DNA of 64,000 nt from Furfurilactobacillus milii (GTDB lineage: Bacteria; Bacillota; Bacilli; Lactobacillales; Lactobacillaceae): positions 232,106-296,105 of the forward strand of contig NZ_WEZT01000005.1 of NCBI RefSeq assembly GCF_009863985.1. The letters are read 5' to 3'. The notes beneath the pieces are model-generated. The model was not told the origin of the DNA and ran no database searches. It saw only the letters and a list, made by a program, of their open reading frames with translations. This document shows positions 18,412 through 22,649 of this stretch, piece by piece. Every line of letters starts with the position of its first letter. Position 1 is the stretch's first letter. Position numbers and translations under genes: made by a program.

Positions 18412-21000
18412 TTAGTTGATGATTTTAAACTCGTACGGAAACTTCACATTAATCTTGGCACCTAATTTGAACTGGGCGCCGGCCAACGGTAAATTGGCAC
18501 GCCAACGCGTATCAAGATTAACAGGAATATCGACCATTTCGACATCCCCACGCGTGGCAGTGATAAATGGTCCCTGACTGAAATCGCGTCGATCAGCGGC
18601 CGTCGTTTTGTCTAACAAGGCGCGGACCAGCATGCGAATCCAGTTAATGCCTGTGCCCTTGTTCAACAAGCCAAACTCTGGGAATGGTAAGGCAGTGGTG
18701 ACCATTCTTGAATGACCACTGAACGCAGAGAACAAGGTATTATAAAAACCGCTTTGTCGCATAGAACCAGGTTCCGCATCAATCCCTGGCACGCCTTGGT
18801 TGTCAACGACCAGTCGATGCGTTGGTGCATGATAAGCCGTTTGGGCAATTTCAACTGGGTCAGCGACGCCAATTTTATTAGTATGGTAAACAACTCTGGT
18901 TAAGAATTGGTCGCCATCTTGAGCTGCCTTGCTGGCCTTGTCCTTGTTAATAACAATGACGTTAATGTGACGCAATCGCAATGCACCAATCAGCTTCAGC
19001 CGATTGCCGGGCACAAACACCCAGCGTGGATGTTCCAAGTCAATAATGCCTAAAATATCCGAAATTTCCTGAGGCTCCAAGTACTGTTTATCGGTCAACT
19101 GTGGAATTAAGCTGATTGCGTTGGGGTTATTATTGACAACTACCGTTTTGATACCTTGCTGATGCAACTCACTAATCACAGTGCTCATCACGTATTCGCC
19201 GGCAGCCCCGTCACCGAGCCGAAAAGCACCAGTTGTGACCACCAACGCAGTATTGTCAGCTAGCGGTCGGCTTTCATTTTCCAGTTCGTACGTTGAATAA
19301 AATGTTGGCACTACTTCTGAAAACTCACCGGCAGTCGGTTCAACGGTCTTATAAGTTGGGATAATGCCAGCGGTGTGTGCCTGGTTCATAACGGCATCGG
19401 CATTTGTCTGCCATAGCTGAGCAATAAGCCCATCACTAAAACCATAATACTTTGCTCGTTGCAACCATTCTTCAGATCCTGAGTGGGCCGCAATATCAAC
19501 TTCCAGATTATAAATGTTGCGTAATTTGTGAAAATAAAACTCATCGATTTGCGTCAGCTCAGCTAATTCATCAGATTGGTAGCCGCGACGAATTGCTTCT
19601 AGCAACAGCATCATACGGTTATCATGGGGGTGAATTAATTGCTGAATCAGATCGTTGTCTGATAATTTTGATAATGCATCAAAAGCGAAATCGCGATTGT
19701 GATAGTGAGCCGCCCGCATCGCCTTTAACATCGCCTCTTCCAGTGAACGACCAATGCCAAGCGTAGCACCCACCGATTTCTGAACAGTTGTGAGCTGACG
19801 GTCCACTTTCACCCCACGTCGTTCTGCCTCATCAAAAGCAAAGATTGGAAAACGGACAACAACGTGGTCTAATACGGGTTCAATTAACGCCGTCCGTTTC
19901 GCAAAACGACTCGACAACCGAACCTCAGGCAAAGAGATGCCCGTCATGACATTAGCTGCTACCAGTGCAATCGGATAGCCACTAGCACGCGACAGCATGG
20001 CTGAAACGCGATCATAATAAGGATTTACTTTCATGATAAAGTAATTGTCCAATACCGGATCCAACGCAAACTGAACGTGCATCACACCGACGATATGCAA
20101 TCGCCGAGCTACGTGGAACGCTGCCTGACGCAACTTTTGATACTCACGATCCGTTAAAGTTTGAATTGGGGTCACTTCAATTGAATCGGCTGCATGAATA
20201 CCAACCGGATCCATATCTTCCATCGCACCCAGTAAAAGCTCAGTTCCGCGTGCATCACGAAGGACCTCGAAAGACACTTCTTTCAGACCGACGATACTCT
20301 GATCCACAATCACTTGACGTGTGCGTGAGCGTTCAAAAGCGGCTGATAGAGCAACATCCAATTGGTCCGCATTTTCGGCCAGTACACGATCACCCTCACC
20401 ACGCGGCGCCACCGACTTAACAATCACTGGGAATCCGACCTGACGAGCAATATCGAACGCATCGGATGTTGTACTAGCTACTTGCGACGTAATCACGGGT
20501 TCGCCTAAATCACGAAGCGTCTGATTCATTAACGCAGGATTATTGATTAAGCGAACTGTCGTCAACGGCATCCCCAAAACATTAATGTGCTTGTCATCCA
20601 AATAATCGTGGGCAATCAATTCCTCAACAGTTCTCATGGCAGTGAGTCCGCCAACCGTTGGCACGATGCTGGTAATATGTTCACTTTCAATTACCTGGCG
20701 CACCGTAGCAACGTCAGATGGATCTCCCATAATCACTGTCGCACCACATGCATTTTCCATTGAAAACGAAAACGGATTGTTGTTTAAATAAACCGTATCG
20801 TAGTTGTGTTTATGAAGGACACTCAACGTTTGATACGTCGCAGCATCTAACTCCGTCTCGTGGCCAAAATCGTTCGGACCGTCACCAATCACTAACAGGC
20901 GCTGGTGAACAGATGCCGTTTTTTCTGCTGAGTGCTCGGCTTGATTAAATGTCGCAAGCTGAGCAGTCGTTTGTGCACCCTGACTTGTTTCTTCTGCCAT
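18412..21000 (-). CDS. CarB-like protein (carbamoyl phosphate synthase large chain) without intact active sites
   Basis: An 862-residue protein, compared with about 1060 for CarB. Residues 30-400 match the first synthetase half (DPVGIHAADSIEVTP; HVQFALDP; ASGYPIA). But the metal ligand Glu in EVNPR is Lys (KVNPYYDR at about 20000-20035), the following Arg is Tyr, and the glycine loop GGTGGG has become PRGEGDR. The oligomerisation region (about 410-560) and FYSTYELENES link are present. The second pre-ATP-grasp segment is degenerate (VTTGAFRLGDGAAGEY). The second ATP-grasp domain and the MGS allosteric domain are missing, replaced by about 170 unfamiliar residues. The frame is fully open, and its ATG overlaps the carA stop as TAATG with GAGGTG upstream. 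It cannot make carbamoyl phosphate by the known mechanism. Confidence 0.88.
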   Translation of the reverse strand: MAEETSQGAQTTAQLATFNQAEHSAEKTASVHQRLLVIGDGPNDFGHETELDAATYQTLSVLHKHNYDTVYLNNNPFSFSMENACGATVIMGDPSDVATVRQVIESEHITSIVPTVGGLTAMRTVEELIAHDYLDDKHINVLGMPLTTVRLINNPALMNQTLRDLGEPVITSQVASTTSDAFDIARQVGFPVIVKSVAPRGEGDRVLAENADQLDVALSAAFERSRTRQVIVDQSIVGLKEVSFEVLRDARGTELLLGAMEDMDPVGIHAADSIEVTPIQTLTDREYQKLRQAAFHVARRLHIVGVMHVQFALDPVLDNYFIMKVNPYYDRVSAMLSRASGYPIALVAANVMTGISLPEVRLSSRFAKRTALIEPVLDHVVVRFPIFAFDEAERRGVKVDRQLTTVQKSVGATLGIGRSLEEAMLKAMRAAHYHNRDFAFDALSKLSDNDLIQQLIHPHDNRMMLLLEAIRRGYQSDELAELTQIDEFYFHKLRNIYNLEVDIAAHSGSEEWLQRAKYYGFSDGLIAQLWQTNADAVMNQAHTAGIIPTYKTVEPTAGEFSEVVPTFYSTYELENESRPLADNTALVVTTGAFRLGDGAAGEYVMSTVISELHQQGIKTVVVNNNPNAISLIPQLTDKQYLEPQEISDILGIIDLEHPRWVFVPGNRLKLIGALRLRHINVIVINKDKASKAAQDGDQFLTRVVYHTNKIGVADPVEIAQTAYHAPTHRLVVDNQGVPGIDAEPGSMRQSGFYNTLFSAFSGHSRMVTTALPFPEFGLLNKGTGINWIRMLVRALLDKTTAADRRDFSQGPFITATRGDVEMVDIPVNLDTRWRANLPLAGAQFKLGAKINVKFPYEFKIIN

Positions 21001-22079
21001 TAATGCTGTTCACCTCTAATTCCTGTGAGCTCGATGAAGTCGTCAAACACTTGGGTTGCTTCCCACGGCCCCGGCGCAGCATCCGGAAAGAATTGAACCG
21101 AAAATGCTGGATAATCACGGTGGCGTAACCCTTGGATTGAACCATCGATCAAGTCAATATGCGTAATCAAAAGCTGATCACGGTTGATACTATCACGGTC
21201 AACACCGTATTCTTCGGCCTGTGCCGCATACATAATCTGATTCGTAATGATTTCGCGGATGGGATGATTCATTCCTTGATGAGCAACTGGCAGGCGTTGA
21301 ATCGTTGCGCTATTAGCCAGCGCGAATAGTTCGTGACCTAGCCCGATACCCAATAACGGCACGCGCGTTTCCAACGTTTTAATGGTCGTTAAGATGTCCT
21401 GACCAAGATCACGCGGATCCCCAGGTCCACTCGACAAGATAATGCCATCCGGATCGAGGTTAAGAATATCATCAGCGGTCGTCGTGTATGGCACCACAGT
21501 TACATTTGCATCACGAACCGCCAGTTCCCTTAAAATACCGCTTTTTAGACCAAAATCCATGACCACAATGTTATGACCCATGCCGGGGTTGGCATATGGG
21601 CGTGGTGTGGCCACCTGTGAAACTTGCTGATTTGTCAGCACGATGGCATTAAGTTGGTCAAACGCGTGCTCATCAGCAACGTCCACAATGCTGGCGTTAA
21701 GACCATTATGGGTTCTCAGCTTACGGACTAATTGCCGTGTGTCAATGCCTGAAATCCCCGGAATGTTGTGGACACGTAGAAATTGATCCAAACTTAAAGA
21801 TCGTTGTCGATTGGTAGATACTTCTGCCACTTCACGCACCACGACCCCTTTAGCAGTTGGCAAAATTGATTCATAACTTTCATGATTAACGCCCACAGCG
21901 CCAATGGTTGGTGTGGTAAAGACAATTATTTGATTGTGGTAAATCGGATCAGTAATAATTTCTTGATACCCGGTGACACTCGTATTAAAAACGATGGTGC
22001 CGCTTGTAGTTGCCGGCGATCCAAACGCTTGACCTTTATAGGCCGTGCCATCTGAAAGAATTAAATAGCGTTCTGTCAT
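21000..22079 (-). CDS. CarA-like protein (carbamoyl phosphate synthase small chain) without the glutaminase triad
   Basis: A 359-residue protein of normal CarA length and domain order: N-terminal CPSase small-subunit domain (SDGTAYKGQAFG, GYQEIITDPIY, GISGIDTRQLVRKLR) and a class I glutamine amidotransferase domain (VMDFGLKSGILREL, LSSGPGDPRDLG). The nucleophile Cys of GICLGH is Gly246 (GIGLGHELF, codon 21342-21344), the catalytic His is Phe331 and the Glu is Asp333 (VQFFPDAAPGP, 21081-21089). It therefore cannot hydrolyse glutamine. The ATG at 22079 has AAGGA eight bases before it. It is tightly linked to pyrR upstream and overlaps the carB-like gene. A conserved fold with a dead site points to a structural or regulatory role. 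Confidence 0.9.
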   Translation of the reverse strand: MTERYLILSDGTAYKGQAFGSPATTSGTIVFNTSVTGYQEIITDPIYHNQIIVFTTPTIGAVGVNHESYESILPTAKGVVVREVAEVSTNRQRSLSLDQFLRVHNIPGISGIDTRQLVRKLRTHNGLNASIVDVADEHAFDQLNAIVLTNQQVSQVATPRPYANPGMGHNIVVMDFGLKSGILRELAVRDANVTVVPYTTTADDILNLDPDGIILSSGPGDPRDLGQDILTTIKTLETRVPLLGIGLGHELFALANSATIQRLPVAHQGMNHPIREIITNQIMYAAQAEEYGVDRDSINRDQLLITHIDLIDGSIQGLRHRDYPAFSVQFFPDAAPGPWEATQVFDDFIELTGIRGEQH

Positions 22080-22112: not shown

Positions 22113-22649
22113 TTAATCTTTGCCGGTGATGATTTCAACGCTATCCTTACCATCAACTTCGTTCACTGAAACTTGGATTCGTTCGTTTTGGGCCGTTGGA
22201 ATATTCTTACCAACAAAATCAGCCCGAATTGGCAATTCGCGGTGACCACGATCAACCAGCACCGCTAGGTTAATACTATTGGGCCGGCCTAAATCCATAA
22301 TGGCATCCATGGCAGCACGAATGGTCCGACCAGTAAACAAAACATCATCGACCAATACCACTTTTTTATCCGTTACAGACGTATTGAGATTACTGATAGC
22401 GGCCTTAGTTGTTGGTTCTGAATTCGCAATGTCGTCACGATATCCGCTAACATCCAATTGGCCAACAGGAACAACTGTATCTTCCAGCTGATGTAAACGT
22501 GATGCAATTCTGTCAGCTAAATAGACCCCTCGTGTTTTAACACCGATCAAAACTAAATTTCCAATCCCACGATTACGTTCAATAATTTCGTAGGTGATTC
22601 GAGTCAACGCCCGTTGCATCGCCATTGCATCGACAACTTCTTTTGCCAT
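22113..22649 (-). CDS. pyrR: PyrR, pyrimidine operon attenuation regulator / uracil phosphoribosyltransferase-like
   Basis: A 178-residue protein with all PyrR landmarks: [15 protein letters not shown], the PRPP-binding loop [20 protein letters not shown], and [21 protein letters not shown]. PyrR binds anti-antiterminator RNA in pyr leaders when UMP is high and has weak uracil phosphoribosyltransferase activity. Unlike its CarA/CarB neighbours it looks fully functional. AAGGGG precedes the ATG. The gene follows rluD after 15 bases, so no PyrR attenuator lies between them. The usual downstream genes pyrP, pyrB, pyrC, pyrD, pyrF and pyrE are absent here. Confidence 0.93.

Follow-up and report, generated by a model that had tools for sequence, protein, structure and literature searches.

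In a window of 64,000 nucleotides from Furfurilactobacillus milii (assembly GCF_009863985.1, contig NZ_WEZT01000005.1, positions 232,106 to 296,105 of the forward strand), the gene of the regulator PyrR is followed by homologues of both subunits of the glutamine-dependent carbamoyl phosphate synthase (CPS), which we refer to as the CarA-like and the CarB-like protein. Judged by their residues and domains, these proteins lack the defining features of CPS and are a pseudoenzyme pair derived from it, which very probably serves a different purpose, most likely in regulation. The three genes are open, coupled frames:

22113..22649, minus strand: pyrR, 178 amino acids; NCBIfam NF003548, 270.8 bits (cut-off 218)
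21000..22085, minus strand: carA-like gene, 361 amino acids, GTG start; CPS small-subunit homologue with Gly248, Phe333 and Asp335 at the triad positions
18412..21000, minus strand: carB-like gene, 862 amino acids; CPS large-subunit homologue in which Lys324 and Tyr328 take the places of Glu299 and Arg303

The carA-like and carB-like genes overlap by one base, and the trio comes after lspA- and rluD-like genes, neighbouring genes being separated by short gaps or overlapping. Residue numbers were taken from an alignment to CarA and CarB of E. coli (L114) and those of the CarA-like protein are counted from the GTG. An alternative ATG lies two codons downstream, and a preliminary description of this DNA, which had counted from there, gave the triad positions as 246, 331 and 333. 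PyrR, which had been described as intact, scores above its family cut-off, and motif reading found both the phosphoribosyl pyrophosphate loop and the second family motif unaltered. Like known PyrR proteins, it is an ordinary member of the PyrR family, and in a homology search it was the single PyrR match of the genome. The CarB-like protein matches that of F. milii strain C5 at 100% identity.

Cys269, His353 and Glu355 of E. coli CarA correspond to Gly248, Phe333 and Asp335 of the CarA-like protein. All three letters had been read correctly before, but the aspartate had been counted as a loss. In 15 of 15 canonical Lactobacillaceae CarA sequences read (L095-L097, L099-L108, L110, L111) we found Cys-His-Asp at these positions. 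Since the aspartate is usual in the canonical CarA of this family, only the cysteine and the histidine are really lost, which is the pair that a glutamine-hydrolysing CPS should carry. Pfam detected both CPS small-chain domains, and the protein exceeded the small-subunit cut-offs of TIGR01368 (371.4 bits, cut-off 307.35) and NF009475 (433.1 bits, cut-off 221). From the family score alone, it would be called functional.

In the CarB-like protein, Lys324 and Tyr328 replace Glu299 and Arg303 of the E. coli enzyme, and the sequence PRGEGDRV stands where E. coli has the glycine loop TMGGSGGG; both changes agree with the preliminary description. Of the elements of the first ATP-grasp site (the metal ligands Glu299 and Asn301 and the glycine loop) Asn301 alone is kept, and Arg306 (E. 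coli CarB numbering) is also retained. Pfam recognized pre-ATP-grasp sequence in two stretches, the first ATP-grasp domain and the oligomerisation domain. According to Pfam and the E. coli alignment, the second ATP-grasp core and the allosteric MGS domain are absent, as had been claimed. The second half is not wholly lost, since the E. coli alignment shows a pre-ATP-grasp stretch at about residues 565-685 and then a weakly similar tail. Against the large-subunit model TIGR01369 the protein scored 497.5 bits, far under the cut-off of 1027. The best matches in the PDB were E. coli CPS entries (1a9x and 1bxr for the CarB-like, 1c30 and 1bxr for the CarA-like protein). These residues predict that the pair makes no carbamoyl phosphate, in support of the earlier claim to this effect.

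The pair resembles CarA and CarB (PyrAA and PyrAB) of glutamine-dependent CPS in that it is homologous over most of its length and has the same subunit order, and it appears to derive from the CPS copy of a pyr operon. It differs from CPS in lacking the Cys and His residues, the first-site metal ligand, the glycine loop, the second ATP-grasp core and the MGS domain. By analogy, two known systems may be regarded as partial precedents. According to passages of one report (PMC4655335), human CPS1 keeps an inactive glutaminase-like domain, in which the catalytic Cys is replaced (Ser294). Human CPS1 still makes carbamoyl phosphate from ammonia, whereas the pair described here has also lost both phosphorylation sites, so that it does not qualify as an ammonia-dependent CPS with a dead glutaminase and intact synthetase sites. 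The second precedent is the aspartate transcarbamylase (ATCase) complex of Pseudomonas, where, as passages of another paper describe (PMC6022934), an inactive dihydroorotase is kept for a non-catalytic role. That dihydroorotase is a subunit of an active enzyme, whereas the CarA-like and CarB-like proteins survive where neither CPS nor ATCase was found. In the open-licence literature searched by titles, abstract starts and passages, we found no description of a dead or truncated CarAB in lactobacilli.

Conservation and selection in Lactobacillaceae

We searched 397 genomes of the family, a sample with 40 genus codes, for the CarB-like protein. Among the matches listed, many genera had homologues of the large subunit that are encoded by open frames of about 820-900 amino acids. 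A locus was scored as non-canonical when its CarB was short or diverged and sited in the slot next to rluD. The preliminary description had proposed to look for homologues with the same substitutions: all 65 non-canonical CarA sequences (31 genus codes) carry Gly at the position of Cys269 and 44 of them Phe at that of His353, five full-length loci (L098, L109, L112, L113, L093) having been classed as non-canonical once their residues were known. F. milii C5, F. milii FUA3430, F. rossiae and F. siliginis share the triad letters of the window's CarA-like protein as well as the Lys and Tyr at CarB positions 299 and 303. These identical residues in four Furfurilactobacillus genomes make a sequencing error very unlikely.

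Among 60 truncated CarB-like proteins, position 299 was occupied by Lys (46), Arg (8), Glu (5) or Ser (1), and Arg303 was changed to Tyr or Phe in 49. The first-site residues E215 and H243 were retained in 59 and 57 of these 60 proteins, respectively; because they are kept while E299 and R303 are altered, the pocket appears to have been changed rather than eroded. Over 51 CarA-like sequences, 96 columns were at least 95% conserved. As a side observation, the eight positions of the former second site read GKHHQKYH in five CarB-like proteins of genus code g37 (L183-L187, with 53-67% identity between the fifth and the other four), and judged by this comparison the altered second-site letters are conserved although the site is dead.

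In an order-wide CarA search (246 genomes), we read the 30 matches that bore a locus, weaker matches without a locus not being among them; 16 had Gly, all in family f1, and of the 14 with Cys, two were from f1 and 12 from other families. A search of viral_contigs for homologues to deepen an alignment turned up no relative. The DNA pattern for GxGLGHE matched in 101 of the 397 genomes, but this count was not used, since it includes chance-like matches and is an undercount, many copies reading AIGLGHE.

The ratio of non-synonymous to synonymous substitution rates (dN/dS) was calculated for 15 locus pairs with the flanking genes as control. In 11 of these pairs dS was infinite in at least one trio gene, and we relied on three pairs with low dS. 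Compared with F. rossiae (L034), the ratio was 0.007 for the carA-like gene, 0.013 for the carB-like gene and 0 for pyrR, and the flanks gave 0.067 (rluD), 0.056 (lspA), 0.027 (fhs) and 0.027 (rqcH). Comparison with F. milii FUA3430 (L037) yielded 0.012 and 0.014 for the carA-like and carB-like genes and 0.027-0.059 for the flanks; for a pair from genus code g38 (L069-L070) the values were 0.003, 0.021 and 0.011-0.020. In the pair L045-L048, which was not relied on (dS 1.0-2.3), pyrR gave 0.014, the carA-like gene 0.027, the carB-like gene 0.033 and rluD 0.040. Between the window and F. rossiae, the carA-like and carB-like genes are under very strong purifying selection. The suggestion of selection for another role is borne out by these ratios, by the constant Gly at Cys269 and by the single group that the CarB-like proteins form (see below). 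In the three pairs relied on, neutral evolution, which would have spoken against this suggestion, was not seen; one copy with a nonsense codon is considered further on.

Neighbourhood and origin of the locus

The trio is flanked by the following genes, all of which were named by a look at their sequences only; homologues of the lspA- and fhs-like genes are present in many syntenic loci:

22665..23660, minus strand: rluD-like pseudouridine synthase, 15 bases upstream of pyrR
23683..24255, minus strand: lspA-like signal peptidase II
24280..25950, minus strand: fhs-like formate-tetrahydrofolate ligase
16550..18316, plus strand: rqcH/NFACT-like protein, convergent, downstream of the carB-like gene

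An rluD gene is located upstream in 63 of the 65 loci and rqcH convergently downstream in 39 of 65. By this gene order, rluD is seen as part of the ancestral arrangement, and lspA, fhs and rqcH as conserved neighbours. Outside this neighbourhood, the window carries an RNase P class B RNA (28932-29308, minus strand) and a tRNA-Arg (59679-59752, minus strand).

Between rluD and rqcH, where the trio has its place in the window, genus codes g13 (L100) and g25 (L096) carry a pyrR-pyrB-pyrC-carA-carB operon with canonical residues; g30 (L097) has such an operon after rluD. In other genera an NCS2 permease is found between pyrR and the carA-like gene (g11, g15) or between rluD and the carA-like gene (g27). 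Leaders of the PyrR-dependent type (RF00515) precede the pyrR-permease-carA-like-carB-like array in g11 (59.7 bits) and the permease-carA-like-carB-like array in g27 (56.7 bits). Because the pyr operon occurs in the same slot and because of these permease and leader arrangements, the trio locus is best read, as far as gene order tells, as a remnant of an ancestral pyr operon.

A CarB tree of 77 sequences was calculated by a quick method, and its long branches make details unsure. Here, the 15 canonical sequences lie on one side of a branch (support 96, starred) and 61 non-canonical ones with 31 genus codes stand together (94, not starred). The five full-length dead forms, whose CarA also carries Gly and whose ATP sites are altered, branch nearest to the E. 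coli root (82). If this tree is right, catalytic decay preceded the deletion of the second half, which suggests that the catalytic residues were lost first and the second half of CarB later.

PyrR, its leaders and the true carbamoyl phosphate synthase

PyrR had been proposed as a partner of the pair. Its gene lies directly upstream of the carA-like gene in 52 of the 65 loci, and in 49 of these 52 it encodes the only PyrR found in the genome; the other three loci belong to g38, with two PyrR each. PyrR was found in 65 of 66 genomes (once in 60 of them) and in 386 of the 397 family genomes, absence meaning that there was no match at E 1e-25. The 11 genomes without a match comprise seven of g29 (G029, G065, G095, G121, G145, G167, G188; two of them 65-68% complete), three of g37 and one metagenome-assembled genome (MAG) of g18 (87% complete). 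In the five g29 genomes examined, canonical CPS alone was found. An in-frame TAG interrupts the canonical carB of one g29 locus (L191, G029).

In a PyrR tree of 71 sequences with moderate support, 43 PyrR proteins encoded beside truncated carA-like and carB-like genes are mostly separated from 21 others, which belong to pyr operons or are free. Separation of the types took 2 and 3 changes as compared with means of 22 and 18 after shuffling.

Work by Arsene-Ploetze (2006) and Bringel (2008) reportedly dealt with PyrR2 and regulation in response to inorganic carbon in L. plantarum. In the literature accessible to us in passages, pyrR1 (lp_2704) and pyrR2 (lp_1782) are listed for L. plantarum (PMC7911632), and one paper reports that PyrR2 controls the pyr genes depending on inorganic carbon (PMC3582564). 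These passages mention no role for CPS-like neighbours of PyrR. The preliminary description had raised the question whether the locus of the window is equivalent to one of L. plantarum. Each of the three g38 genomes has two PyrR, two other CarB and one CarB-like protein. In G331, the PyrR pair compared is identical at 113 of 174 aligned positions, the two PyrR proteins of L. plantarum being 62% identical, and the PyrR beside the CarA-like and CarB-like proteins groups apart from the pyr-operon PyrR. This layout agrees with pyrR1 and pyrR2 of L. plantarum, which does not prove that the loci are equivalent. In the window genome no second PyrR was found besides that of the trio. Its PyrR and that of g38 both fall outside the pyr-operon group (support 86-88), the two not being placed as one clade.

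We searched 26 genomes and 14 control genomes for RF00515 leaders (cut-off 54 bits). Matches over the cut-off were obtained in 14 of the 26. In the window genome, three matches, all with E <0.001, indicate targets for its PyrR: one at an NCS2 permease on C45 exceeds the cut-off (55.6 bits), and those at the pyrB-pyrC-carA-carB operon on C1 (45.4 bits) and at pyrF-pyrE-pyrD on C10 (38.5 bits) remain under it. In genomes for which neither canonical CarB nor pyrB was found, PyrR leaders stand ahead of permeases, as in F. siliginis (57.4 bits). In g19 and g16 genomes in which canonical CarB was not found (L140, L143, L144, L134, L137, L142), NCS1-type permeases come after similar leaders, which score 35-55 bits and in one of six cases exceed the cut-off; the permease of L140 was identified by a scan and the other five were named by resemblance. 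We know of no NCS1-type permease described as a PyrR target.

Finally, 66 genomes were searched with canonical CarB. A second, intact carAB, which had been named as a check, is present in the window genome: its canonical carAB (L095) belongs to the pyrB-pyrC-carA-carB operon mentioned above. In 42 of the 66 genomes the pseudo form occurs together with another CarB, which in five cases (G057, G139, G220, G184, G303) has about 1030 residues that were not read. Three genomes (G012, G025, G030) had canonical CarB only. Beside the pseudo form, canonical CarB was not found in 21 genomes, of which three (G017, G354, G028) are 87-91% complete, and in 15 of these 21, including F. siliginis, pyrB above 300 bits was not found either. 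As these 21 genomes retain it, the pair is not maintained solely to serve a true CPS or de novo synthesis. Six genomes (G028, G219, G104, G094, G043, G035) had pyrB above 300 bits and dead CarB only, no canonical CarB being found.

Possible role of the CarA-like and CarB-like proteins

Taken together, the lost residues and domains, the common slot, the single CarB-like group, purifying selection, co-localisation with PyrR in most of the loci and retention where no true CPS was found indicate a non-catalytic descendant of CPS. We tentatively favor, with a confidence somewhat short of even, that the two proteins are a non-catalytic, probably ligand-sensing complex that, together with PyrR, acts on the synthesis of pyrimidines and the uptake of uracil. 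According to this proposal, the pair would descend from the CPS of the ancestral pyr operon and would still form a CarA-CarB complex. This complex may bind a metabolite of CPS chemistry, for instance a nucleotide or bicarbonate, in its remodelled pockets; a basic residue in place of the metal ligand, with E215 and H243 kept, looks as if suited to metal-free binding. Glutamine is a less likely ligand, since S47 and Q273, which we take to be glutamine-contact positions, are altered. Via the PyrR of the same operon, the complex might tune transcriptional attenuation of the genes for pyrimidine synthesis and uracil uptake. In a few lineages, it would be uncoupled from PyrR and would have to act otherwise.

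A number of observations weigh against this proposal. Three g37 genomes keep full-length CarA-like and CarB-like proteins with no PyrR and no canonical CarB match, and the g18 MAG keeps the dead pair with no PyrR match and no canonical CarB found. For 9 of the 65 loci (four in g3, three in g6, one each in g27 and g37) PyrR is encoded elsewhere in the genome; in g3 and g6 the neighboring pyrR is gone and the six PyrR read there group with the pyr-operon type. Because of such keepers without PyrR and loci away from it, PyrR cannot be the only partner everywhere, so that the earlier idea of a PyrR partner is favored by gene context but not as an exclusive relation. In the PyrR tree, two proteins from operons that also contain the pseudo genes (L098, L094) fall with the pyr-operon type, and those of L088-L091 and L109 make up a separate group. 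The window trio itself showed no PyrR leader when searched, and weak RF00515 matches are unspecific, since 5 of the 14 controls matched at E 1 and two of these were over the cut-off. Ser47 is changed to Ile in 49 and Gln273 to Glu in 56 of the 65 non-canonical CarA, which speaks against a glutamine sensor. In g38, dN/dS of the carB-like gene is no lower than that of the flanks, and a partial MAG copy of this gene (L036, contig DMZB01000293.1) has one in-frame nonsense codon, which reflects either strain-level decay or an assembly error. A structure prediction for the CarB-like protein from four Furfurilactobacillus sequences (the window, L034, L035 and L037) reached a mean predicted local distance difference test score of 31 and was discarded.

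The PyrR-less g37 genomes and the nine loci away from PyrR are what one would expect from a non-catalytic complex independent of PyrR, for instance one that senses a nucleotide or bicarbonate or acts as a scaffold on another partner. The pyrR adjacency would then be a relic, and since the slot is the old pyr-operon slot (g13, g25, g30), such adjacency can indeed be inherited. We nevertheless consider this explanation rather unlikely, because the adjacent pyrR is so often the only one found, because the five PyrR-less g29 genomes examined show canonical CPS alone and because the type of PyrR largely goes with the pseudo-CPS.

It is improbable that the pair retains enzymatic activity, be it another reaction or part of the original one, for instance carbamate or carboxyphosphate chemistry that depends on ATP or ammonia and takes place in the first half. 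The frequent retention of E215 and H243, the five proteins with E299 and the six genomes with pyrB in which no canonical CarB was found would fit such an activity; Lys or Arg at E299 in 54 of 60 proteins, the missing glycine loop of the window protein and the absence of a second site argue against it. Arginine catabolism could supply these six genomes with carbamoyl phosphate.

Still less probable, we think, is a regulatory or structural subunit of true CPS or ATCase, comparable to the inactive dihydroorotase of Pseudomonas. The canonical carAB of the window genome and the 42 genomes with a further CarB are compatible with this idea, but the 21 genomes in which canonical CarB was not found, three of them 87-91% complete and 15 also without pyrB, are not. 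As a general role, partnership with a true CPS, which the preliminary description had raised, is refuted, short of missing sequence.

That the genes are a decaying pseudogene, undisrupted so far, is hardly credible: the nonsense codon of L036 and the shorter CarB-like proteins of L092 (659 amino acids) and L094 (643 amino acids) stand against dN/dS of 0.003-0.021 in the three low-dS pairs, the conserved CarA-like columns and one tree group with 31 genus codes, and for Furfurilactobacillus and g38 the selection test refutes this reading.

If the pair does act with PyrR as a ligand-sensing complex, the genetics of L. plantarum PyrR2 offers a lead, and one of that kind only, to inorganic carbon as the signal. 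The pair might then be the missing signal-input module of PyrR2-type regulation, which senses inorganic carbon or a nucleotide without metal or turnover and signals to PyrR; we regard this more specific proposal as doubtful.

It is unusual for a whole heterodimeric metabolic enzyme to have become a conserved pseudoenzyme pair, which was read here in 31 of the 40 genus codes sampled from this family of food and gut bacteria. As the CarA-like protein passes curated cut-offs for a working enzyme, it can cause metabolic models to predict prototrophy for pyrimidines or arginine wrongly. The pair is also a candidate for the PyrR2 response to inorganic carbon and for the CO2-dependent growth of lactobacilli. 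If this is true, lactic acid bacteria could use it to match their pyrimidine synthesis or uptake of uracil to the supply of CO2 or nucleotides.

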